Virus record (IMG/VR): IMGVR_UViG_3300046006_001715
Location: 1-40,903 of that record
Length of the DNA: 40,903 nucleotides
Strand: one strand, 5' to 3'
From: a virus
This document shows positions 1,287 through 25,519 of the stretch, in pieces. Both the position numbers and the translations under genes were made by a program. Under the pieces are notes generated by a model that saw nothing but the letters and a program-made list of their open reading frames with translations, ran no database searches and was not told the origin of the DNA. How positions within the stretch are numbered: position 1 is the stretch's first letter; each line of letters starts with the position of its first letter.

Positions 1287-1423
1287 AGCCACGCATGCGC
1301 CTGAAAGACAGCTTCTTTGACGGTGGCTGGATTTACCACTGGTGGGAGTGCTGGTCGCCTGATGGCCGGATCGGTCACGGCTTCTCGCCAAAGTCGGCTT
1401 ATGAGGCTTGGAGCAAGGCATGA
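1283..1423 (+). CDS. 46-residue Trp/Phe-rich hypothetical protein
   Basis: Runs from ATG 1283 to TGA 1423, coupled by ATGA overlaps to the Cys-rich gene before it and NinB after it. The sequence contains 'GGWIYHWWECWSPDGRIGHG' followed by 'SPKSAYEAW', a compact antiparallel-strand pattern rich in Trp and Gly with a final helix. I do not recognise a family with certainty. Position in an unbroken overlap chain supports it as a real gene. Confidence 0.55.
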   Translation: MKPRMRLKDSFFDGGWIYHWWECWSPDGRIGHGFSPKSAYEAWSKA

Positions 1424-1830
1424 GTGAGCGCATCACCCTGCGTCTGTGGGAGCCGGTGCAGGCTCACAAAGCTCTTGCCGGTGTATGGCCCAACGTCAAG
1501 GCCTTGTTGATGGCTGGGCATCGCTTGGTGATTGAGGTCAAGCCCGAAACCCGCAGCACTGAACAGAATGCCCGGCTGTGGGCCATGTTGACCGAAATCA
1601 GCAGACAAGTGGATTGGTACGGCAACCGCCTCACGCCCGATGAGTGGAAAGACGTTTTCAGCGCCGCCATGAAGCGCACGAAGGTTGTGCCCGGTCTGGA
1701 TGGCGGTTTCGTTGTCTGCGGCCAGTCCACCAGCAAGATGACCAAGGGCGAGATGAGCGAGATGCAGACGCTCATGGAGGCTTTCGGTGCTGAGAAGGCC
1801 GTTCGATTCGCCGCACAGGAGGCCGCGTGA
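1420..1830 (+). CDS. ninB: NinB-like recombination protein
   Basis: A 136-residue protein resembling lambda NinB (Orf), a recombination mediator that binds single-stranded DNA and helps load recombinases. Visible signatures are 'VIEVKPETRSTEQNARLWAM', 'VDWYGNRLTPDEWKDVFSAA' and the C-terminal 'GEMSEMQTLMEAFGAEK'. The ATG at 1420 overlaps the previous stop; the in-frame TTG at 1408 is less likely. It sits with NinG two genes downstream, a nin-region arrangement. The end holds an AGGAGG (1817-1822) that serves the following methyltransferase locus. Confidence 0.88.
   Translation: MSERITLRLWEPVQAHKALAGVWPNVKALLMAGHRLVIEVKPETRSTEQNARLWAMLTEISRQVDWYGNRLTPDEWKDVFSAAMKRTKVVPGLDGGFVVCGQSTSKMTKGEMSEMQTLMEAFGAEKAVRFAAQEAA
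1817..1822 (+). promoter_or_regulatory. strong ribosome-binding site shared by two overlapping starts
   Basis: AGGAGG lies 4 nt before the GTG at 1827 (methyltransferase frame, GTGA overlap with ninB) and 8 nt before the ATG at 1831 (+1-frame ORF). The second spacing is near optimal and the first is short, so one site could feed both frames, with re-initiation at the GTGA favouring the methyltransferase. Confidence 0.7.
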
Positions 1831-2612
1831 ATGAGCTACATCTATTCGCTGGGGCAGGAGGTGGAATTCTCGCTGGAGCCTTACTCGGCGACAGGTGCAT
1901 CGGTGCCGTCGAAATCAACCCCTACGCGCAAGCAGTCCTCATCGCCAGACAAGAAGACGGCACGCTCCCGCGCTTCCCAATCTTCAGCGACATCACCAAG
2001 TTCGATGCTCGACCCTTCCGAGGCCGTGCTGATGTCGTTTCTGGAGGATTTCCCTGTCAGGACATCAGCAGCGCAGGCGATCGAGCGGGAATTACCGGCA
2101 AGCGATCAGGACTCTGGCGAGAGTTTGCAAGGGTGGTTTGCGAGGTTGAGCCCATCGAAGTCCGAGTGGAGAACTCCGCAGACCTCACTTCTCGGGGGCT
2201 TGGAGTCGTTCTCGGAGACTTGGCCGCGCTGGGGTTCGATGCACGGTGGGGTGTGTTATCTGCGGCAGACCTTGGCGCACACCATCTGCGTGAGCGCATC
2301 TGGATCGTTGCTACCCACCCTGACCGTAAACGGCAACAACAACCGCCCGTATCCGGGAAAGAAGTCGGGTTACGGCCTGGCCACAGCGGTGGCTCTGCTC
2401 CCGACCTTGACCACTATTGGCCTGAACGGGGGGAGCAACAGCAGGCGAGCCACGGCAAAACGCGGCGAGCCGCCTACCCACATTGGCCCACTGAATCCGG
2501 ATTGGTGCGAATGGTTCATGGGGTTCCCAATCGGCTGGACCGTATTTACTGCCTTGGAAACGCACAAGTTCCAAGAGTGGCAGCAGCAGCATGGCGAACT
2601 CTCAGAGGGTGA
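1827..2612 (+). CDS. dcm: DNA (cytosine-5-)-methyltransferase
   Basis: A 261-residue C5 methyltransferase with its motifs in order: motif I 'HLFAGAGGGILAG' (5-17, AdoMet site), motif II-like 'AVEINPYA', motif IV 'SGGFPCQDISSAG' with catalytic Cys77, motif VI as 'ENS' (116-118, usually ENV), motif VIII-like 'HHLRERIW' (152-159), and motif X 'GNAQVPRVAAAAW' (244-256). The target-recognition stretch between VIII and X is short (about 80 residues), as in phage enzymes. The start is GTG in a GTGA overlap with ninB. It probably protects phage DNA from restriction. A full-length ORF overlaps it in the +1 frame. Confidence 0.9.
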   Translation: MNELHLFAGAGGGILAGALLGDRCIGAVEINPYAQAVLIARQEDGTLPRFPIFSDITKFDARPFRGRADVVSGGFPCQDISSAGDRAGITGKRSGLWREFARVVCEVEPIEVRVENSADLTSRGLGVVLGDLAALGFDARWGVLSAADLGAHHLRERIWIVATHPDRKRQQQPPVSGKEVGLRPGHSGGSAPDLDHYWPERGEQQQASHGKTRRAAYPHWPTESGLVRMVHGVPNRLDRIYCLGNAQVPRVAAAAWRTLRG

Positions 2613-2619
2613 ACGATGA
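1831..2619 (+). CDS. overprinted +1-frame protein across the whole methyltransferase gene
   Basis: A 262-residue ORF starting 4 nt after and stopping 7 nt after the methyltransferase, in the +1 frame. It has an optimally spaced AGGAGG, and its TGA overlaps the ninG ATG (ATGA 2616-2619) exactly as real neighbours do. From about residue 70 it shows motifs I recall from phage proteins often labelled 'DNA methylase': 'FPVRTS', 'WRTPQTSLLGGLESFSETW', 'PRWGSM', 'LLPTLTVNGNNNR', 'LNPDWCEWFMGFPIGWT', 'HKFQEWQQQHG'. The first 65 residues are Ser/Thr/Lys-rich and may be disordered. Function unknown. It is either a true overprinted gene or a frame image kept by conserved methyltransferase DNA; both frames look intact. 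Confidence 0.55.
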   Translation: MSYIYSLGQEVEFSLEPYSATGASVPSKSTPTRKQSSSPDKKTARSRASQSSATSPSSMLDPSEAVLMSFLEDFPVRTSAAQAIERELPASDQDSGESLQGWFARLSPSKSEWRTPQTSLLGGLESFSETWPRWGSMHGGVCYLRQTLAHTICVSASGSLLPTLTVNGNNNRPYPGKKSGYGLATAVALLPTLTTIGLNGGSNSRRATAKRGEPPTHIGPLNPDWCEWFMGFPIGWTVFTALETHKFQEWQQQHGELSEGER

Positions 2620-3158
2620 AGCCCTGCGCCCACTGTTCCACCCCATTCACCCCGCAGCGCATGGGCCAGCGCGTTTGTTCGCCCAGATGTGCGGGTCGAT
2701 ACGTCAAAGAGCAGAAGAAAGCCGAGGCCGCAGACACGAAGGCGCGCAAGGCTGCGATCAAGACCATTCCCCAACTTATCAAGGAAGCCCAACATGCCTT
2801 CAATGCCTACATCAGACAACGTGACGAAGGAAAAGACTGCATTTGCTGTCCAGGCACGCCGCTCGGCGGCCCTGCCGTTGGTGGCGCATTTGACTGCGGG
2901 CATTGGAGAAGCGTTGGCTCCGCTCCGCACCTGCGGTTCGATGAGCGCAACGCTCACGGACAAAACAAGGTCTGCAATAGATGGGGCGCAGGCCGCGCAG
3001 TTGATTACCGGCGTGGGCTGGTTGAGCGTATCGGAATCGACGGAGTGGAGGCTTTGGAGTCCTCAAACGGTGTTCACAAGTGGACCCGAGAAGAACTGAT
3101 CGCCATCCGCGCCACCTACACCCAGAAGCTCAAAGAACTCAAGAAGGAAACAGCATGA
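2616..3158 (+). CDS. ninG: NinG-like recombination protein
   Basis: A 180-residue relative of lambda NinG (Rap), a structure-specific nuclease acting on Holliday and D-loop junctions. An N-terminal zinc finger has CxxC at 4-7 and a second Cys pair near 21-25. A second metal-like cluster follows: 'CICCPG', then 'AFDCGHWRSVGSAPHLRFDE' and 'NKVCNRWGAG', with the HNH-like His and Asn residues expected for this family. GAGGG lies 6 nt before the ATG. It is coupled upstream to the +1-frame ORF and downstream to the next gene by ATGA. Confidence 0.9.
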   Translation: MKPCAHCSTPFTPQRMGQRVCSPRCAGRYVKEQKKAEAADTKARKAAIKTIPQLIKEAQHAFNAYIRQRDEGKDCICCPGTPLGGPAVGGAFDCGHWRSVGSAPHLRFDERNAHGQNKVCNRWGAGRAVDYRRGLVERIGIDGVEALESSNGVHKWTREELIAIRATYTQKLKELKKETA

Positions 3159-12737: not shown

Positions 12738-14969
12738 ATGGCAATTACCGACAACTTCACAGGGACTGCGGGTCAGAAGATCACCGCTCGGTCTGGCTGG
12801 TCCATGCTTGGATCGGGCACAACCGGCGATAACCCGGAAATTAGCGCTGCGGGCAACAGCATGGGTTCTGCTGCCTCGAACAGCGATGCGGGCATGGTGG
12901 GTGAAAACCTTGCCTCCGCAGACCATTACGTTCAGGCCAAGTTGTATTCAGCGTTCGCTTGGAGCGGTACGGGCAACCTCCCACTTCTCGCCGTCAGAAC
13001 CGACAGCCGCAACGAAGCATGGGGTCTGATCTATCGCACGCCGACCAGCTCATGGCAGCTTTACAAGGCTGGTGCAGGCGCTGGCCTTCGTTCGTCCTAC
13101 GCCGCAACCTTTGTTGATGGCGACGTGTGCCGACTTGAGGCGCAAGGCAATGAAATCAGGTTTTACCTCAACGGCACGCTGCGCATCACCGAGTCCGGCA
13201 TTACGGACGGCCTGACAACACCCGGCGTCGGTATTTTGGTCCGCAACGTCACGGCAAGCGCCGTCATTGCAGACGATTGGGAGTCCGGGGTTCTGGCGGG
13301 CGGAGACACCACCGCTCCAGTCCTGACGACCGCAGTAGGCACAGCCACAGGCTCCACTACTGCCACGGTAGGCGCAACGACCGACGAAGCCAACGGCACC
13401 ATGTACGTGGTGGTCACGACCTCCGCGACTCAGCCATCCATTGCACAGATCAAGGCCAGTCAGGATCACACCGGAGCCACTGCGCCCTATGCTGGTTCGC
13501 AGACGATCACCACGACCGGCGCGAAGACGTTCAGTGCAACGGGCCTGACCGCATCGACCACGTACTACGCCCACCTGCTCCACACCGACGCGGCTGCGAA
13601 CGACTCCAACCGGATCACGTCAAGCAGCTTCACAACCACTACGCCTGACGTTACTGCACCTACCTTGAGTTCGGGTGTCGGCACAGTCAAGAGCAATGCC
13701 CTGATCGTTGTCGGAGCCACGACGAACGAGGGTAACGGCACGATGTATGTTGTCGTGACCACCTCGGCCACGCCTCCAAGTGCCGCGCAGGTCAAGCTGG
13801 GGCAGAACAACGGCGGCACGGCTGCTGTATTCGCTGCCAACCAGGCTATCGGCTCGACGGGTGCGAAGACGTTCAACGCCACCGGCTTGACGCAGCTCAC
13901 GGGTTATTACCCGTACATCGTCCACACCGATGCTTCGGGCAATGATTCGTCTGTGCTGTCCATCGGCCTGCGGACCACGTTCCGCAACGGTGCGACGGGT
14001 CAGAGCGTTGTTGACGACACTGCGGCCATCCCCGGTGTGCAGGAACAGGGCTTCCTCTACAACGATGTGACCCTCCCCGCTGATGCGGACAAGTGGTTTT
14101 CGTACACGATTGCCACGCCTGCGGTTGATTCGGCCTCGCTCACGCTGTACGCCAACGGCTCGTTTGTGTGGGCTGGTGGCTCTGACTCGTTCACCTATCA
14201 GCTTGAGGTTGATGGCGCAAACGTAGGCTCTCCAGCGCTGGTGACGTTGACGGCCACTGGTGCCGATGTCACTGCGCCAACGTTGTCCAGCGCCACGGGC
14301 ACGAAGACCGGCACGACGACAGCCACAGGCACCGTCACGACGAACGAAGCGAACGGGACTCTTTACTACCTGACGAACACCAGCGCGAGCGCCTTGAGTG
14401 CTGCTGTGCTGGCCGGATCGACTCAGGCCGTGACGACCTCTGGTGTGCAGAACATCAGCCGGTCTGGGTTGACCGCAGCGACGACCTATTACCACCACTA
14501 CCTGCACAAAGACGCGGCAGGCAATGACTCGGCGGTGCTGTCGTCCAACAGCTTCACGACCGATGCGGCTGCTGATGTCACGCCACCGAACCTGACAAGC
14601 CCTACAGGGGCGACTCTCGGCCCTACAGGTGCGGTTGGCTCTGTCAGCACTAACGAGGCAAACGGCACGCTGTACTGGCTGACCAACACCAGCGCCACAG
14701 CCACCGACGCAGCGATCAAGGCCGCCAACTCGCAGCCTGTCACCGCAACGGGTGTGCAAAACGTCACCTCCAGTGGTCTGACGGCTTCGACGGTTTACTA
14801 CAACCACTTCCTGCACCGTGACGCAGCGGGCAACGACTCAACCCGCAGCACCTCGGCAAGTTTCACCACGGCTGCACCTGGTGGGCCTGTGACTGGAAAC
14901 GACCACGGCGGCGAGGCCATGCGCTCATGCATGCGCTTCGCGATGTATCCCGCAATGAACCAAGGCTGA
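12738..14969 (+). CDS. LamG-like plus Ig/FnIII-like repeat virion protein
   Basis: A 743-residue protein. Residues 1-190 look like a concanavalin/LamG-type jelly roll ('WSMLGSGTTGDNPEISAAG', 'WGLIYRTPTSSWQLYKAG', 'EIRFYLNGTLRITESGI'). Then come repeated units each starting 'D(V/T)TAP-L(T/S)' or 'DVTPPNLT' and ending in '(Y)YHHYLHKDAAGNDS'-like strands, at about 193, 306, 514 and 619, with a different beta domain at about 420-510. The tail is short ('GGEAMRSCMRFAMYP'). Such surface repeats commonly bind carbohydrate on host cells. It likely partners the preceding protein. Confidence 0.65.
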   Translation: MAITDNFTGTAGQKITARSGWSMLGSGTTGDNPEISAAGNSMGSAASNSDAGMVGENLASADHYVQAKLYSAFAWSGTGNLPLLAVRTDSRNEAWGLIYRTPTSSWQLYKAGAGAGLRSSYAATFVDGDVCRLEAQGNEIRFYLNGTLRITESGITDGLTTPGVGILVRNVTASAVIADDWESGVLAGGDTTAPVLTTAVGTATGSTTATVGATTDEANGTMYVVVTTSATQPSIAQIKASQDHTGATAPYAGSQTITTTGAKTFSATGLTASTTYYAHLLHTDAAANDSNRITSSSFTTTTPDVTAPTLSSGVGTVKSNALIVVGATTNEGNGTMYVVVTTSATPPSAAQVKLGQNNGGTAAVFAANQAIGSTGAKTFNATGLTQLTGYYPYIVHTDASGNDSSVLSIGLRTTFRNGATGQSVVDDTAAIPGVQEQGFLYNDVTLPADADKWFSYTIATPAVDSASLTLYANGSFVWAGGSDSFTYQLEVDGANVGSPALVTLTATGADVTAPTLSSATGTKTGTTTATGTVTTNEANGTLYYLTNTSASALSAAVLAGSTQAVTTSGVQNISRSGLTAATTYYHHYLHKDAAGNDSAVLSSNSFTTDAAADVTPPNLTSPTGATLGPTGAVGSVSTNEANGTLYWLTNTSATATDAAIKAANSQPVTATGVQNVTSSGLTASTVYYNHFLHRDAAGNDSTRSTSASFTTAAPGGPVTGNDHGGEAMRSCMRFAMYPAMNQG

Positions 14970-15337: not shown

Positions 15338-16219
15338 ATGGACACCAACCAAGAAACTGGAGTGTCAGTTGCCGATGTGGCTGGTCTGCTGGATGACGAG
15401 ACTGAACAACCCGTTGAGGAACTGGAGCAAGAAGCAAGCACTGAGGAAGTCGCCGTAAGCGATGAACCCGAGGTGCAGGCTGAGAGCGAAGGTGAAGACG
15501 AAGTTGAAGAGGTCGAGTTTGAGGGCAAGGTTTTCAAGGGGCCTAAAGGCGTCAAGGAAGCACTGCTCCGCCAAGCTGACTACACGAAGAAGACCCAAGA
15601 GGTGGCAGAGCAGCGCAAAGCTGTTGAAGAGCGTGCGCAAGCTCTTGAGCAGCAGCAGCGCGTGATGGCGCAGACGTTCGACAAGGCCGTCGAGTTCCGC
15701 GAAGTTCAGAAGAGGCTCACTGAGTACGAGAACCTCGATTGGGCTGCGTTGGGACAGAACGACCCCGCACAGGCGCTTCAACTGAATCTCGCTTACCAAA
15801 AGCTACAGCGTGACGCACAAGCCAAGTATGGAGAGTGGAAACAGGCCGAGCAGCAGACACAACAACTGACGGAGCAAAACCGCCAGCAAATGCTTGTGAA
15901 GGCAGAGCAGGAACTGAAGACCCGCCTCCCCAACTATGGACCGCAAGTCGCTGAAAAGATCGTCAAGGCCGGAAAAGAGTACGGCATCACCGATCAGGAA
16001 TTGAACTCGCTCATTGATCCGCGTTACGTGCATGTCCTGCATGACGCGATGAAGTGGCGCGCATTGCAGGCTGAAAAGCCCAAGGCAATGCAGAAGGTTG
16101 TGGACGCGCCGCAGGCCATCAAGCCGCAGGCCACGCAACCCAAACCCCGAACCAACCAAGCCGCCCTCGACCGTCTGAAACAGAACGGACGAATCGAGGA
16201 CTTTGCAAAATTTCTTTGA
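15338..16219 (+). CDS. capsid scaffolding protein
   Basis: A 293-residue, highly charged protein directly upstream of the capsid gene. The N-terminus is very acidic ('EEVAVSDEPEVQAESEGEDE'), followed by a conserved strand 'VEFEGKVFKGPKGVKEALL', a long Gln/Glu/Lys coiled coil (about 80-205) and a basic C-terminal hook 'NQAALDRLKQNGRIEDFAKF'. This acidic-coil-basic layout is the usual design of phage scaffolds, which bind coat protein through the C-terminal helix and leave the prohead before packaging. GAGGAC precedes the ATG. Confidence 0.82.
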   Translation: MDTNQETGVSVADVAGLLDDETEQPVEELEQEASTEEVAVSDEPEVQAESEGEDEVEEVEFEGKVFKGPKGVKEALLRQADYTKKTQEVAEQRKAVEERAQALEQQQRVMAQTFDKAVEFREVQKRLTEYENLDWAALGQNDPAQALQLNLAYQKLQRDAQAKYGEWKQAEQQTQQLTEQNRQQMLVKAEQELKTRLPNYGPQVAEKIVKAGKEYGITDQELNSLIDPRYVHVLHDAMKWRALQAEKPKAMQKVVDAPQAIKPQATQPKPRTNQAALDRLKQNGRIEDFAKFL

Positions 16220-16228
16220 AAGACTGAC

Positions 16229-17203
16229 ATGGCACAACCAGCAAACACCTTTGATAGCTATGACGCTATCGGCAACCGTGAAGACTTGCAGGACAAGATC
16301 TACATGGTTTCTCCCGAGAAGACCCCCATCGTCTCGGCCCTGCGTCGTTTCACCGCGACCCAACGCCTGCACGAATGGCAGCGCGACTCGTTGGCAGCTC
16401 CCAACGCTGACAACGCCGTGATTGAAGGCGACGACCGCACTGGCACCGCCCTGACCGCAACCCAGCGCGTGGCAAACACCGTGCAGCTTTTCGACAAAGT
16501 TGCTGTGGTGTCCGGCACGCAGAGCAAAACCAAATCGGCCGGCCGTTCTTCGGAAATGAAGTACCAGGTCAGCAAGATGATGGTGGAGCTGAAGCGCGAC
16601 GTGGAAGCCATGGTGCTTTCCAACAACGTGGCCGTGCAGGGCAACGCAACCACCGCCCGCAAGTCGGCTGGTCTGGGCGCGATGATCTACACGAACATCT
16701 CGCACGGTGGCTCCGGTGCTACCCCGGCCCACACCTCGGGTCTGGCAACTGTGGCACAGACCGCAGGCACGAACCGCACGTTCGCCGAGCCATTGCTGAA
16801 GACCAACCTGCAAAGCATCTTCAGCAACTCCGGTGAGATGCCCACGATCATCAGCCTGACGCCTTCGCACAAAGGCATCTTCTCGACGTTCACCGGCATC
16901 GCCCAGAACCGTCAAGACGTGAAACGTGGCAGCCAGGCCGTGATCGTTGGCGGTGCTGACGTGTACGTGTCCGATTTTGGCGAACTGACCGTGGTCCCGA
17001 ACTACGTGCAGACCACCGCCAACGCCAACACCGCGTTTGTGCTCAACCCTGAGTACGCTGGCATTGCGTACCTTGGCGGTGGCTTCGGCTCTGTCGCACT
17101 CGCTAAGACCGGCCACACCGAGAAAGAGCTGGTTTCTGCTGAAGCCTGCCTGGTGGTGACTTCTGAGACGGCCCACGGCGCGATCAAAAACCTGACCGCT
17201 TAA
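16229..17203 (+). CDS. major capsid protein (DUF5309-like)
   Basis: A 324-residue protein with the DUF5309/SU10-type capsid pattern: 'EDLQDKIYMVSPEKTPIVSA' near the N-terminus, 'HEWQRDSLAAP', 'RVANTVQLFDKVAVVSGTQ', 'EMKYQVSKMMVELKRDVEAM', then 'PTIISLTPSHKGIFSTF' and the late 'VVPNYVQTT'. HK97-fold shell protein; no N-terminal delta domain of its own, consistent with the separate scaffold. It lies 9 nt after the scaffold stop and is followed by a terminator. Confidence 0.88.
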   Translation: MAQPANTFDSYDAIGNREDLQDKIYMVSPEKTPIVSALRRFTATQRLHEWQRDSLAAPNADNAVIEGDDRTGTALTATQRVANTVQLFDKVAVVSGTQSKTKSAGRSSEMKYQVSKMMVELKRDVEAMVLSNNVAVQGNATTARKSAGLGAMIYTNISHGGSGATPAHTSGLATVAQTAGTNRTFAEPLLKTNLQSIFSNSGEMPTIISLTPSHKGIFSTFTGIAQNRQDVKRGSQAVIVGGADVYVSDFGELTVVPNYVQTTANANTAFVLNPEYAGIAYLGGGFGSVALAKTGHTEKELVSAEACLVVTSETAHGAIKNLTA

Positions 17204-17221
17204 TCGGCCTGCAACTAAGGA

Positions 17222-17251
17222 GCCTCCGGGGGAAACCTCGGGGGCTTTTTT
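17222..17251 (+). terminator. terminator hairpin abutting the next start codon
   Basis: GCCTCCG (17222-17228) pairs with CGGGGGC (17239-17245, one G-U), followed by six T. The last T bases directly precede the ATG at 17252, so the ribosome-binding G-run of the next gene is inside the 3' arm of the hairpin. Confidence 0.72.
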
Positions 17252-17554
17252 ATGTCCGCTTTTAAAGATTACGACCCGCAAACCGGCATCACGACCACGG
17301 TTCATTACGTGGACGATGCAAACCGGATGGCGATTCAGAAGACCTACGACGCCGAGCCGTTTCTGAAGCGTGCCGCAGAGATGCGAGCGCAGACCGAGGG
17401 GCAGAGATGGGGTGATCTGCGGTATGTCGGGACGATTCCCGATGCAGAGCTGGCAACGATGCTCCGCCAAGACGGCGGCATTGACAAGAAGCGCCTGAGT
17501 GCGTGGCTCAAACGCAACCCCGACATGGTTGCTTTTTCGAAGTTCCTCAAATGA
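17252..17554 (+). CDS. conserved head-proximal hypothetical protein
   Basis: A 100-residue protein of the kind that follows DUF5309-type capsid genes: it opens 'KDYDPQTGITTTVHYVDD', then 'QKTYDAEPFLKRAAEMRAQ', 'WGDLRYVGTIPDAELATMLR' and a basic, helical C-terminus 'KKRLSAWLKRNPDMVAFSK'. This pattern recurs after capsid genes of several short-tailed phages, without a proven role. The start codon sits at the end of the terminator U-tract. ATGA overlap with the next gene. Confidence 0.7.
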   Translation: MSAFKDYDPQTGITTTVHYVDDANRMAIQKTYDAEPFLKRAAEMRAQTEGQRWGDLRYVGTIPDAELATMLRQDGGIDKKRLSAWLKRNPDMVAFSKFLK

Positions 17555-18114
17555 CATACACCGAGATTCAAGCGCAGATCGCGGCGTGGTCTAACCGCAC
17601 CGATTTGACGGCGGTTATCCCTGACTTCATCGCCTTGACTGAAGAGCGCGTGAATCGGCACCTTCGGGTGCGTCAGATGGAGGTCGCCATGCCGCTGACC
17701 CCCATCGTTGACAACCTCATCACGCCCCCTGCTGGGACGATTGATGTCAAAACACTTTGGCTGGATGGCTATGAGGGCACGCCCCTGCACATCCAGTCGT
17801 TCGAGTCTGCCTTGTCGTGGCAGACCGACGCTCTCACGACCCTGTTTGCATGGAAAGGGTCAGACCTGTACTTCAACGGTGGCGGCGAAGTTCGCGGCGT
17901 TTTGTATTCGCGAATTCCTGCCCTAGCCGACAACACCACCAACTGGCTTTCTGAGGCCGCACCGAGCGTGTACCTGTTCGGTGGCTTGATGGAAATGGCC
18001 TCGTACACGGGCGGAGACCCTTCGCTGTGGCAAGCCCGCTTTGATGCTGCTCTGAACGAGATTTCGGGCAATAACAAGCGTTATTCCGGTCCTTTGGTGG
18101 CTCGCGCACGATGA
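17551..18114 (+). CDS. head-tail adaptor / tail tubular A-like protein
   Basis: A 187-residue protein starting at ATG 17551 (ATGA). 'MTYTEIQAQIAAWSNRTDL', 'FIALTEERVNRHLRVRQME', 'LYSRIPALAD' and 'WLSEAAPSVYLFGGLMEMA' match the short adaptor that docks to the portal in podoviruses (T7 gp11-like or P22 gp4-like position). An aromatic beta segment and a C-terminal helix 'LWQARFDAALNEI' complete it. It links portal and tail hub. Confidence 0.75.
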   Translation: MTYTEIQAQIAAWSNRTDLTAVIPDFIALTEERVNRHLRVRQMEVAMPLTPIVDNLITPPAGTIDVKTLWLDGYEGTPLHIQSFESALSWQTDALTTLFAWKGSDLYFNGGGEVRGVLYSRIPALADNTTNWLSEAAPSVYLFGGLMEMASYTGGDPSLWQARFDAALNEISGNNKRYSGPLVARAR

Positions 18115-22245: not shown

Positions 22246-22698
22246 ATGTTCGACCCAATCACTCTCGGTCTGATCGGCTCGGCAATCGGCGGCCTGACCA
22301 GCAAGAAGCCACTGAAAGGCGCACTGCTCGGCGGTGCGATGGGTGCAGGCGGTGGCTTGCTTGCCGGTGGCATGGGTGGCGCTGGTGTGGCCGGTGACGC
22401 CATGATGCCGGGCCTGCTCGGTGCAAACGCTCCGATGGCTGCATTCAACCCGATGGCACCGCAAGGCATGGCCGGGATGATGTCTCAGGCAAAACCGTTC
22501 ATGGACGCTGCAAGCACGGGTATGCAGGTTGCAGGCTCGATGAACCAGCCCGAACAAGCACCACCACCGCCCCAGCTTCCGCAGCAGATGGGCGCTCAGA
22601 CCCTCCAGCAGCTCGCACAGGGCAATCCACAAGCCAACGTGATGGCAGAGGCTGAGATGCGCAAGAAACGCCGTATGGGCCTTTTGGGAGGTATGTAA
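22246..22698 (+). CDS. Gly/Met-rich internal virion protein
   Basis: A 150-residue protein with long Gly/Ala hydrophobic stretches ('ALLGGAMGAGGGLLAGGMGG'), Met-rich central part and 'PEQAPPPPQLPQQMGAQTLQ' before a basic C-terminus 'EAEMRKKRRMGLLGGM'. The composition is that of a membrane-penetrating ejection protein of podoviruses. It lies between two other ejection-type genes and shares TAATG with the next. No enzymatic motif visible. Confidence 0.6.
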   Translation: MFDPITLGLIGSAIGGLTSKKPLKGALLGGAMGAGGGLLAGGMGGAGVAGDAMMPGLLGANAPMAAFNPMAPQGMAGMMSQAKPFMDAASTGMQVAGSMNQPEQAPPPPQLPQQMGAQTLQQLAQGNPQANVMAEAEMRKKRRMGLLGGM

Positions 22699-23879
22699 TG
22701 GCTGGACTCTTGGACTTTGTGAAAACGCCAGAGGGGCAGGGCCTGTTGTCTGCCGCTTTTGGTGGGCTGGCTGGCGCTCGCCGTGGCGCACCTGTGAACT
22801 CGCTCGGTCGTGCTGGCCTTGCTGGTTTGGCTGGGTATAGCAACGCGCAGGATCGCATTCAGCAGCAGGACGAAGCGGCTGTGCAGAAGCAGTACCGAGA
22901 CGTTCAAATGCAGGGCCTGCAAGCTCAGATGGCAAAGCAGAAGGGCGAACAGGAATGGCGTGCTGGCCTGTCTGGAATGCTCCAGCCTCAGCCGCAAGAA
23001 ATCGACCAGTTCACCGGCACCACGCAGATGGTTCCGCCTGATCCGGCCAAGCTGCAAAACTACCTGATGGACCCACGTTCGCCATTCGCGGATAAGGTAC
23101 TTGAGCAGCGCCTTTTTCCGAAAGCGGATGATTTCAAGGTGGTCGGCAACAGTCTGGTGCAGGCTGGTCCGAATGGTGTCAAGCCGGTTTACACCGCACC
23201 CGACAAGGCCGAGGCGTCGCCATCGTCTGTTCGTGAGTACGAATACGCCAAGGCCAATGACGGCTACAAGGGCACCTATCAGCAGTTCCAGACTGAATTG
23301 AAACGCGCAGGCGCGTCCAATGTCACTGTGCCGATCAACATGGGTCAGAAGGGCTTTGACAACACATTGAAGCTGCGCGGCGACTTTCGCAGCGAGCCGG
23401 TCTACAAGGCCCACCAAGAAATGACTTCGGCTTACGGCCAGATTCAACAGTCTCTGAAGCAGGCCAGCCCAGCCGGTGACTTGGCCGGTGCAACCAAGAT
23501 CATGAAACTGCTGGACCCAGGTTCCGTTGTGCGTGAGTCTGAATTGGGCATGGCAATGGCTGCGACCGGCCTGCTGGATCGTGCGCAGAACTACGCGCAG
23601 ATGGTGGTGAGCGGCCAGAAGCTGACCCCGGCCCAGCGCCAAGACTTCCAGAAACTGGCCGACGCTCTGTATTCCGAAAGCGTGACTCAGTACAACGGCA
23701 AGCGGCAGGAATACCAAGGCATTGCCGAGCGCAATCAGTTGAGCGTGCCTGATGTGCTTGGCGCTGAAAGCAAGGTTCCCACGCCTGCGAAGCCCGCAGC
23801 CGTTGGCCCGTTCACTGACGCAGCCAAAGAGCAGCGATATCAGCAGTGGGTCGAATCTCAGAAACGGGGCGGCAAATGA
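22698..23879 (+). CDS. ejection / internal virion protein
   Basis: A 393-residue protein starting TAATG. It opens with a hydrophobic Gly-rich segment ('GLLSAAFGGLAGARRGAPVN'), continues with coiled coil ('DRIQQQDEAAVQKQYRDVQM'), and has a helical middle including 'SVREYEYAKANDGYKGTYQQ' and 'LLDRAQNYAQMVVSGQKLTP'. The late 'YNGKRQEYQGIAERNQL' segment recurs in phage DNA-transfer proteins. Role inferred from composition and position; overlaps the next gene by ATGA. Confidence 0.65.
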   Translation: MAGLLDFVKTPEGQGLLSAAFGGLAGARRGAPVNSLGRAGLAGLAGYSNAQDRIQQQDEAAVQKQYRDVQMQGLQAQMAKQKGEQEWRAGLSGMLQPQPQEIDQFTGTTQMVPPDPAKLQNYLMDPRSPFADKVLEQRLFPKADDFKVVGNSLVQAGPNGVKPVYTAPDKAEASPSSVREYEYAKANDGYKGTYQQFQTELKRAGASNVTVPINMGQKGFDNTLKLRGDFRSEPVYKAHQEMTSAYGQIQQSLKQASPAGDLAGATKIMKLLDPGSVVRESELGMAMAATGLLDRAQNYAQMVVSGQKLTPAQRQDFQKLADALYSESVTQYNGKRQEYQGIAERNQLSVPDVLGAESKVPTPAKPAAVGPFTDAAKEQRYQQWVESQKRGGK

Positions 23880-25519
23880 CCGAACAAGAAGAGTTTGAAT
23901 TCCGTCTTCGCTTTGAGCAAGAGCAGGGCGCAGCACCTGTTGCGCAGCCCAAGCCCATACAAAGCAAACTCGACATGGCGACAAAAAATCCCTTGCTGGA
24001 GAAGGCGTACAACTACGACCCAACCGATGCACGCGGCGGCCTTGTTCGCGGTGCTGGGTCCATTGGCGCCACGATCCTTGCGCCGGTTGACGCATTGGCC
24101 CGCAAGCTGAACAACGGCAAGCCGGTCAACATTGGTGGTTATGACATCGTTGGTCAAGACCGCCGCGCTGGCATGGATGCTGGCTTGCAGTCGCTTGGCG
24201 TCAACACCGACTCCACGCAGTTCAAGACGAACAAACTTCTTGGCGAAGTGGCTGGAACGGCTGGTACTGGCTCACTGCTTGCAAAGGGTGCTCAAGCTGT
24301 AGGCGCGGCTCCTGCCATCGTCAGTGGGTTGCGCACGGGCGGGCTTGATGTTGCTGGGCGTACCGGTCTGGGCGGCTTGGCTGCTCGCGGTGCCACGGGT
24401 GCCGCCTCGGGCGCGGCTACTGCTGGCCTTGTCAATCCCGAAGATGCAGGCACAGGTGCAATGATTGGCGGCGCCATCCCGATGGCTGCAAAGCTTGGCG
24501 GTAGCGCGTTCCAGGCTGCTGGGTCTGCCCTTCGTGGAGGACCTGTATCGCCAGAGGTCGCAGGACTGGCTGAACGTGCGCAGAAGCTCGGCATTCAAGT
24601 CCCCGCCGACCGCATCGCCAACAGCAAGCCATTGAACGCTGTCGCCGCATCGTTGGACTATGTGCCCTTCAGCGGGCGGGCTGCGACCAACGAAAAAATG
24701 GTGAAGCAGTTCAACACCGCTGTATCACGCACGTTCGGCCAAGAGACGGACAACGTGACGATGGGTCTGCGAAAGGCCGGGGACAAGCTGGGTGGTGAGT
24801 TCGACCGCGTGCTGAAGTCCAACACGGTCGCAGTTGACAAGCAGTTGTTTGACGATCTGGCAGAGCACGCTAACCAGGCATCGAAAGAGCTTGGTGGCGA
24901 TGGCGCTCGCATCATCCAAAACCAGATTGATGAAATCATTGCCAAAGGTCAGAGCGGGCAGATGGACGGGCAAGCCGCCTACAACATCAAGAAGACCCTC
25001 GACCGGATCGGCAAGCGCAACACGCCAGAGGCTTACTACGCCATCGACCTGAAAAAGTCTTTGATGGAAGCACTGAACCGCAGCCTCGGACCTGATGAGG
25101 CCGCCAAGTTCGCAGCGACTCGCCAGCAGTACGGAAACATGCTGAGTTTGGAGAAGATCGCCAAGAACGGCGCGGAGGGTGATATTTCGATTGCTCGCTT
25201 GGCGAACATGAAGAACATCAACAGCCCTGACCTGCAAGAGTTGGCCGACATCTCTGCTCAGTTCCTGACGACGCGTGAAAGCCCGCACGGGGCCTTGCAG
25301 CGGTTGGTGATTGGTGGCACTGGCCTGACGGCTGGCGCAAGCATGGGTGCGCTTCCTGTGGCCGCTGGAACAATGGCCGCTGGGCGCATGGCAAACGGGC
25401 TATTGAACAGCAACGCAGCGCGAAACATGGTTCTCGGTGCGCCTATGCAGATTCCGTCAACGGGTGGCCTGCTGGGCGCGACACGAGCGGCTCCGCTGCT
25501 TCTCAATCCCGGCCAGTGA
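23876..25519 (+). CDS. large DNA-ejection protein
   Basis: A 547-residue protein starting at ATG 23876 (ATGA). After a charged N-terminus it has several Gly/Ala hydrophobic segments ('TAGTGSLLAKGAQAVGAAPA', 'GLGGLAARGATGAASGAATA', 'GGAIPMAAKLGGSAFQAAGS') and a long helical region with 'AYNIKKTLDRIGKRNTPEAY' and 'YAIDLKKSLMEALNRSLGP'. This alternation of membrane-like and helical parts is typical of gp16/gp20-like ejection proteins. Its last 17 bp overlap a small antisense ORF. Last gene of the ejection group. Confidence 0.65.
   Translation: MTEQEEFEFRLRFEQEQGAAPVAQPKPIQSKLDMATKNPLLEKAYNYDPTDARGGLVRGAGSIGATILAPVDALARKLNNGKPVNIGGYDIVGQDRRAGMDAGLQSLGVNTDSTQFKTNKLLGEVAGTAGTGSLLAKGAQAVGAAPAIVSGLRTGGLDVAGRTGLGGLAARGATGAASGAATAGLVNPEDAGTGAMIGGAIPMAAKLGGSAFQAAGSALRGGPVSPEVAGLAERAQKLGIQVPADRIANSKPLNAVAASLDYVPFSGRAATNEKMVKQFNTAVSRTFGQETDNVTMGLRKAGDKLGGEFDRVLKSNTVAVDKQLFDDLAEHANQASKELGGDGARIIQNQIDEIIAKGQSGQMDGQAAYNIKKTLDRIGKRNTPEAYYAIDLKKSLMEALNRSLGPDEAAKFAATRQQYGNMLSLEKIAKNGAEGDISIARLANMKNINSPDLQELADISAQFLTTRESPHGALQRLVIGGTGLTAGASMGALPVAAGTMAAGRMANGLLNSNAARNMVLGAPMQIPSTGGLLGATRAAPLLLNPGQ

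Follow-up and report, generated by a model that had tools for sequence, protein, structure and literature searches.

Two overlapping reading frames in a phage nin region: a C5-cytosine methyltransferase probably divided between them

Two long open reading frames on one strand have 782 bases in common in a 40,903-nucleotide stretch of viral DNA (IMG/VR record IMGVR_UViG_3300046006_001715, analysed over its whole length and here called the window), which raises the question whether both are genes and, if so, what the second one encodes. The first frame, alpha (frame 0), starts with GTG at position 1827 and encodes 261 residues, and the second, beta (+1 frame), starts with ATG at 1831 and encodes 262 residues. 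To our knowledge, long same-strand overlaps with selection on both frames are seldom well supported; well over a hundred loci make such selection testable here, and the constrained frame switches at domain borders. We propose that alpha and beta very probably are the two chains of a single C5-cytosine DNA methyltransferase and that beta has its own translation start, the ATG at +4. This would explain the apparent absence of a conserved recognition region in small phage cytosine methyltransferases, as well as a part of the enzyme that is absent from the records. It would also represent a natural split methyltransferase, possibly a modular one, and would clearly illustrate how a border between domains can coincide with a switch of reading frame.

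The annotated parts of the locus, in window coordinates, are as follows:

1408..1830, + strand: ninB, upstream neighbour (PF05772, E=7.3e-42)
1817..1822, + strand: AGGAGG Shine-Dalgarno sequence common to the alpha and beta starts
1827..2612, + strand: alpha, putative large-domain subunit of a C5-cytosine methyltransferase, with motifs I-VIII and X (PF00145, phrog_363)
1831..2619, + strand: beta, putative +1-frame subunit with recognition modules and motif IX, ATG start at +4 (phrog_1008, phrog_26627)
1845..1865, + strand: alpha motif I, FAGAGGG
2043..2063, + strand: alpha motif IV, GGFPCQD, with the catalytic Cys
2161..2250, + strand: overprinted core of beta, SEWRTPQTSLLGGLESFSETWPRWGSMHGG, over alpha motifs VI-VIII, both frames constrained
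2163..2177, + strand: alpha motif VI, RVENS
2289..2312, + strand: alpha motif VIII, RERIWIVA
2308..2394, + strand: beta recognition (PTP) module 1, LLPTLTVNGNNNRPYPGKKSGYGLATAVA, constrained in +1
2395..2487, + strand: beta recognition (PTP) module 2, LLPTLTTIGLNGGSNSRRATAKRGEPPTHIG, constrained in +1
2491..2541, + strand: beta motif IX, LNPDWCEWFMGFPIGWT (hhalign, +1 constraint), where frame 0 reads ESGLVRMVHGVPNRLDR in alpha
2553..2573, + strand: alpha motif X, LGNAQVP; the tract after motif IX is constrained in frame 0
2616..3158, + strand: ninG, downstream neighbour (PF05766, E=1.2e-45)

The sequence-only reading had described this geometry accurately: the lengths of 261 and 262 residues, starts 4 nt and stops 7 nt apart, an AGGAGG located 4 nt from the GTG and 8 nt from the ATG, and a beta stop codon (TGA, 2617-2619) that overlaps the ninG start (ATG, 2616) as ATGA. 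The motifs which it quoted for the second frame are all found there. It had also recognised the ordered C5 methyltransferase motifs of the other frame, and alpha indeed has motifs I, IV (PCQ), VI (EN), VIII and X in order, matches PF00145 over residues 3-170 (E=1.4e-31) and matches phrog_363 with E=6.8e-60. No Pfam match was obtained for beta, which matches phrog_1008 over residues 40-212 (E=4e-20) and phrog_26627 (E=6.7e-13). The phage families phrog_363 and phrog_1008 already exist, as separate families described only as DNA methyltransferase, with no mention of two frames at one locus. Since alpha and beta lie between ninB and ninG, the unit is located in a lambda-like nin region. A protein with a ParB N-terminal domain is encoded at 311-955, shortly 5' of ninB.

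Relatives of the locus have other arrangements as well. In type-2 loci (L033, L103 and L168) alpha ends after motif VIII, and the +1 frame has the recognition modules together with motifs IX and X. In the single-frame actinophage enzymes RitaG gp71, Tweety gp72 and Lton gp60 all parts are present in one chain. The joined chain of L168 (motifs I-VIII of frame 0 followed by the +1 tract) aligns from end to end with these three proteins, and some split and single-frame loci of actinophages are 93-97% alike on either side of the frame switch.

The open +1 frame and its start codons

The length of an open reading frame is insufficient evidence by itself, because the window has other long frames that overlap long frames of the opposite strand (e.g. 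13620-14816, minus strand). The minus-strand frames at 13620-14816 (398 residues), 15803-17557 and 22596-24095 encode 398-584 residues opposite long frames of the other strand, and these overlaps probably reflect chance. If the alpha protein is held constant and its synonymous codons are drawn anew according to codon usage in the window, the +1 frame of the window gene should contain about 4.0 stops (P(none) = 0.009). The same recoding of alpha codons 1-165 in 151 homologous loci gives about 669 expected stops in the beta frame, compared to 9 observed, all within the first 60 codons; as related loci are not independent, recoding and codon-bias counts of this kind have descriptive value. Flanking genes contain a mean of 5.7 stops in +1 per 157 codons, and just 0.5% of 394 such genes are free of them over that length.

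The collection of homologues of both frames, which the sequence-only reading had proposed, yielded 180 distinct loci with beta, down to about 30% beta identity. In all 180 beta lies in the +1 frame of a cytosine methyltransferase, and nearly all have both frames open. A second set was drawn by alpha similarity alone, because most loci of the first set had been chosen by beta. In these 49 further loci the +1 frame is open to its natural end, except for a few stops adjoining a misplaced start. The N terminus of beta is broken in L028, L157 and L180. For stops in the +1 frame of relatives with an intact methyltransferase, which had been named as evidence against a second gene, the outcome was the opposite. 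Overprinting at this locus is real, ancient and found widely, and the same arrangement seems to be retained in hundreds of related phages and prophages.

The beginning of the +1 frame is also preserved. Of 154 loci, 136 have a start codon for beta at +4, and wherever codon 2 of alpha encodes Asn it is AAT (122 loci) and never AAC (0), which keeps the beta start codon. A Shine-Dalgarno-like site was found in 109 of 134 loci; its distance is most commonly 4-5 nt from the alpha start and 8-9 nt from the beta start. Stop coupling to the next gene does not separate the frames (alpha 40, beta 37 of the 134 loci). Beta of actinophages seems to have a different start, as the +1 frames there begin with a GTG after motif VI which depends on AGT, a rare codon for an alpha Ser. 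AGT is used for this residue in 46 of 53 cases, compared to a background of 6%, and in 6 a stop directly precedes the GTG. Two lineages with two different conserved starts fit an independent translation of beta.

A single polypeptide could instead be produced by programmed frameshifting, if ribosomes left frame 0 for +1 past motif VIII and, in loci of the window type, returned before motif X. Such a chain would have all parts in order, as in the single-frame relatives; one +1 shift would be enough in the type-2 loci; and the candidates of a published frameshift predictor include methyltransferases (PMC10885494). However, the window type requires two shifts, and frameshifting has no need of a nearly stop-free +1 frame over 160 upstream codons or of a conserved start at +4. 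No raised constraint was found at the junction of motif VIII and the recognition region, where constraint on alpha 141-160 is low and the third-position rate (0.379) is the highest of the segments covering motifs I-VIII. We therefore consider frameshifting unlikely. Separate initiation of beta is favoured by the sequence data, first because the +1 frame is open far upstream of the possible shift sites, secondly because the +4 ATG is conserved with good Shine-Dalgarno spacing, and finally because the junction is no conserved nucleotide stretch.

Constraint along the two frames

Since third positions of beta codons are first positions of alpha codons, the distribution of nucleotide differences over codon positions distinguishes the two frames. 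When the window is compared with close relatives, the first 360 nt differ at alpha third positions and nt 510-690 at alpha first positions. Between the window and L001, the tract from motif VIII to IX has 27, 3 and 0 differences at alpha codon positions 1, 2 and 3, respectively. This was extended to 44 independent pairs of loci, chosen as disjoint pairs rather than from a tree. Frame 0 is the constrained one in 38, 44, 35 and 39 of the 44 pairs for alpha residues 1-60, 61-105, 106-145 and 146 to motif VIII, respectively. Constraint is then found in +1 over the recognition region (36 pairs, compared to 6 for frame 0) and over motif IX (40 compared to 1), and it returns to frame 0 in the tract after motif IX, which includes motif X (38 pairs, compared to 2 for +1). 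In a control of 17 single-frame pairs the tract from IX to X is constrained in frame 0 (17:0), from which it follows that the test reads the frames correctly.

Over the recognition region and motif IX, alpha is an unconstrained passenger. As a monomeric C5 methyltransferase it falls short, since the tract between motifs VIII and X is constrained in +1 and not in alpha. Synonymous constraint in alpha, an analysis which had been suggested from the sequence, is highest at residues 106-145 and at motif IX. The third-position rate is 0.259 in alpha 106-145, compared to 0.358-0.379 in the flanking segments, and these two parts appear to be constrained in both frames. Beta residues 61-105 show little constraint except for being open, and residues 1-105 as a whole appear to be mostly an open passenger that has a conserved start codon.

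These results bear on the possibility that the +1 frame is an untranslated image, with alpha as the complete enzyme and stops absent from +1 through codon bias and DNA conservation. Part of the +1 motifs is indeed dictated by conserved alpha residues (e.g. LADLGYDA..W), and beta residues 61-105 evolve as passengers. The +1 core is also present in single-frame actinophages, where its being kept open is not explained by a role of beta as sole carrier of the small domain. An image would nevertheless leave unexplained why +1 is constrained and alpha a passenger in the recognition region and motif IX, with the reverse in single-frame relatives, why 9 stops are found instead of 669, and why +1 starts are preserved by codon choice; we regard it as very unlikely. 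The sequence-only reading had left the choice open between an overprinted gene and such an image. Stop avoidance, the conserved start codon and the tract constrained in +1 all argue for the overprinted gene.

Beta as the putative small domain

In C5 methyltransferases the large domain comprises motifs I-VIII and X, and the small domain comprises the variable region and motif IX (PMC3404938). The borders at which the constrained frame switches match these domain borders, and for this reason we read beta as the small domain (recognition modules and motif IX) and alpha as the large catalytic domain, an assignment based on sequence comparison. The sequence-only reading had described the +1 product as a second recognisable protein; it is more likely the complementary part of the same enzyme. 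Motif IX of beta (LNPDWCEWFMGFPIGWT) aligns with the in-frame motif of the single-frame family (hhalign, 93.8%). That family's own motif IX lines up with residues 272-290 of M.HhaI, although the alignment of motif IX alone scores below zero, and the family profile can be aligned to M.HhaI 272-308, which comprises motifs IX and X, a match that is weak when taken alone. The predicted structure of the single-frame family resembles M.HhaI and M.HaeIII from end to end. With Pfam, matches of joined chains stop short of motifs IX-X; a PDB search with the beta profile returned nothing relevant, and the AlphaFold2 model of beta by itself is not confident (pLDDT 41).

The recognition region contains 0-5 PTP modules of about 30 residues each in 134 loci, and these modules presumably read DNA. 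Some PTP modules recur between distant loci, as TVNGNNNRPYPGKKSGYGLATAV of the window and SVCGNYNRKGCSKTSGDGLATQV of L168 do, which would be expected for a multi-specific enzyme. An element similar to the overprinted core of beta is found in actinophage beta. A separate function of a translated beta, e.g. as DNA-binding regulator or anti-restriction protein, would agree with a link between the chains that is drawn from sequence and with the absence of a recognisable fold for beta alone, but it is the least likely of the alternatives, because homology connects the C-terminal part of beta to the small domain that single-chain relatives have in frame, and because alpha itself contains no recognition region under constraint.

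We propose the following for the two-subunit enzyme. Alpha would provide the AdoMet-binding catalytic large domain, in which the linker sequence would be a mere shadow of beta. Beta would be initiated at the ATG 4 nt past the alpha GTG, from the same Shine-Dalgarno sequence, and its small domain, i.e. two PTP-type recognition modules and motif IX, would follow about 160 residues overprinted on alpha. The conserved beta residues at about 107-145 may contact alpha. The subunits would assemble as in M.EcoHK31I, and the complex would methylate phage DNA, presumably as protection against host restriction.

The small chain of M.EcoHK31I reportedly is encoded in an alternative frame within the large one, as Lee et al. 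are said to have described in 1995, and the smaller chain of the window would share this property of coming from another frame of the same DNA. M.EcoHK31I (recognition sequence YGGCCR) is a two-polypeptide C5 methyltransferase with motifs I-VIII and X in the larger chain and motif IX in the smaller one (PMC3404938). The same division is found in alpha and beta, a likeness by description rather than by sequence comparison. Its predicted recognition domain is located in the larger chain (PMC3404938), whereas the constrained recognition region of the window is located in the smaller chain. Beta of the window, moreover, begins 4 nt after the alpha start and is overprinted on alpha almost throughout. 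The best reading is that the window enzyme works like M.EcoHK31I, as an analogy rather than as proven membership. M.AquI (two polypeptides, CYCGRG) is split after motif VIII and resembles the type-2 loci L033, L103 and L168 and Anthony gp80/gp79. Its second chain with motifs IX and X is matched by L033, L103 and L168; the window differs from M.AquI in having motif X in alpha and frames that overlap over nearly their full length. RitaG gp71, Tweety gp72 and Lton gp60 resemble the window in motifs I-VIII, PTP modules, a PEWMMGWPAGW-type motif IX and a GNGVVPQQ-type motif X, but are encoded in one frame throughout.

Distribution, history and annotation

A profile search with beta gave at least 532 confirmed matches in viral contigs and 303 matching places in genome contigs, the latter in many bacterial phyla; the best 80 of each were read. 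Only five plasmid records were found. In a tree of alpha (quickly built, midpoint-rooted, and read for split versus single-frame only, as its label merges both split types) the single-frame forms are nested in the actinophage part and the remainder is split. Well-supported branches force at least 4 changes between the split and the single-frame state. The split may be the older state here, in a sample that favours split forms. Tentatively, one could imagine an ancient phage-borne class of enzymes in which the small domain consists of interchangeable +1 PTP modules swapped between phages, split and fused states toggle via small indels, one alpha serves changing specificities, and the core of beta arose as a de novo contact surface inside the catalytic gene.

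In single-frame actinophage loci, including L291, L294, L295 and L301, a +1 frame extends from the AGT-dependent GTG through a SETWPTSGM core, usually with 1-2 PTP modules. Many of these frames end at a TAG in a similar junction (..GTAGACCTGCT.., with VDLLPTP in frame 0), and the next module starts in frame 0.

A literature search for nested cytosine methyltransferases in phages retrieved nothing. The annotated records of the window type that were inspected name one of the two frames, and specificity predictions made from alpha alone would therefore read shadow sequence. Beta alone is called, as a hypothetical protein, in the Pseudomonas phage phPA-G (L276), and alpha alone in Salmonella phage S9-5 (L277) and Microcystis phage Mel-JY01 (L279). 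Two methyltransferase genes are already recorded for Mycobacterium phage Anthony (gp80/gp79) and likewise for Arthrobacter phage Eesa (39/40). The two genes of Mycobacterium phage Llama (gp74/gp75, L371) and of Leperchaun (gp68/gp69, L285) reflect a frame break within alpha, and not the alpha/beta split. In the prophage of E. coli PCP07014 (L369), RefSeq lists a methyltransferase pseudogene with an internal stop; this copy does look dead, because a TGAATAG closes both frames.
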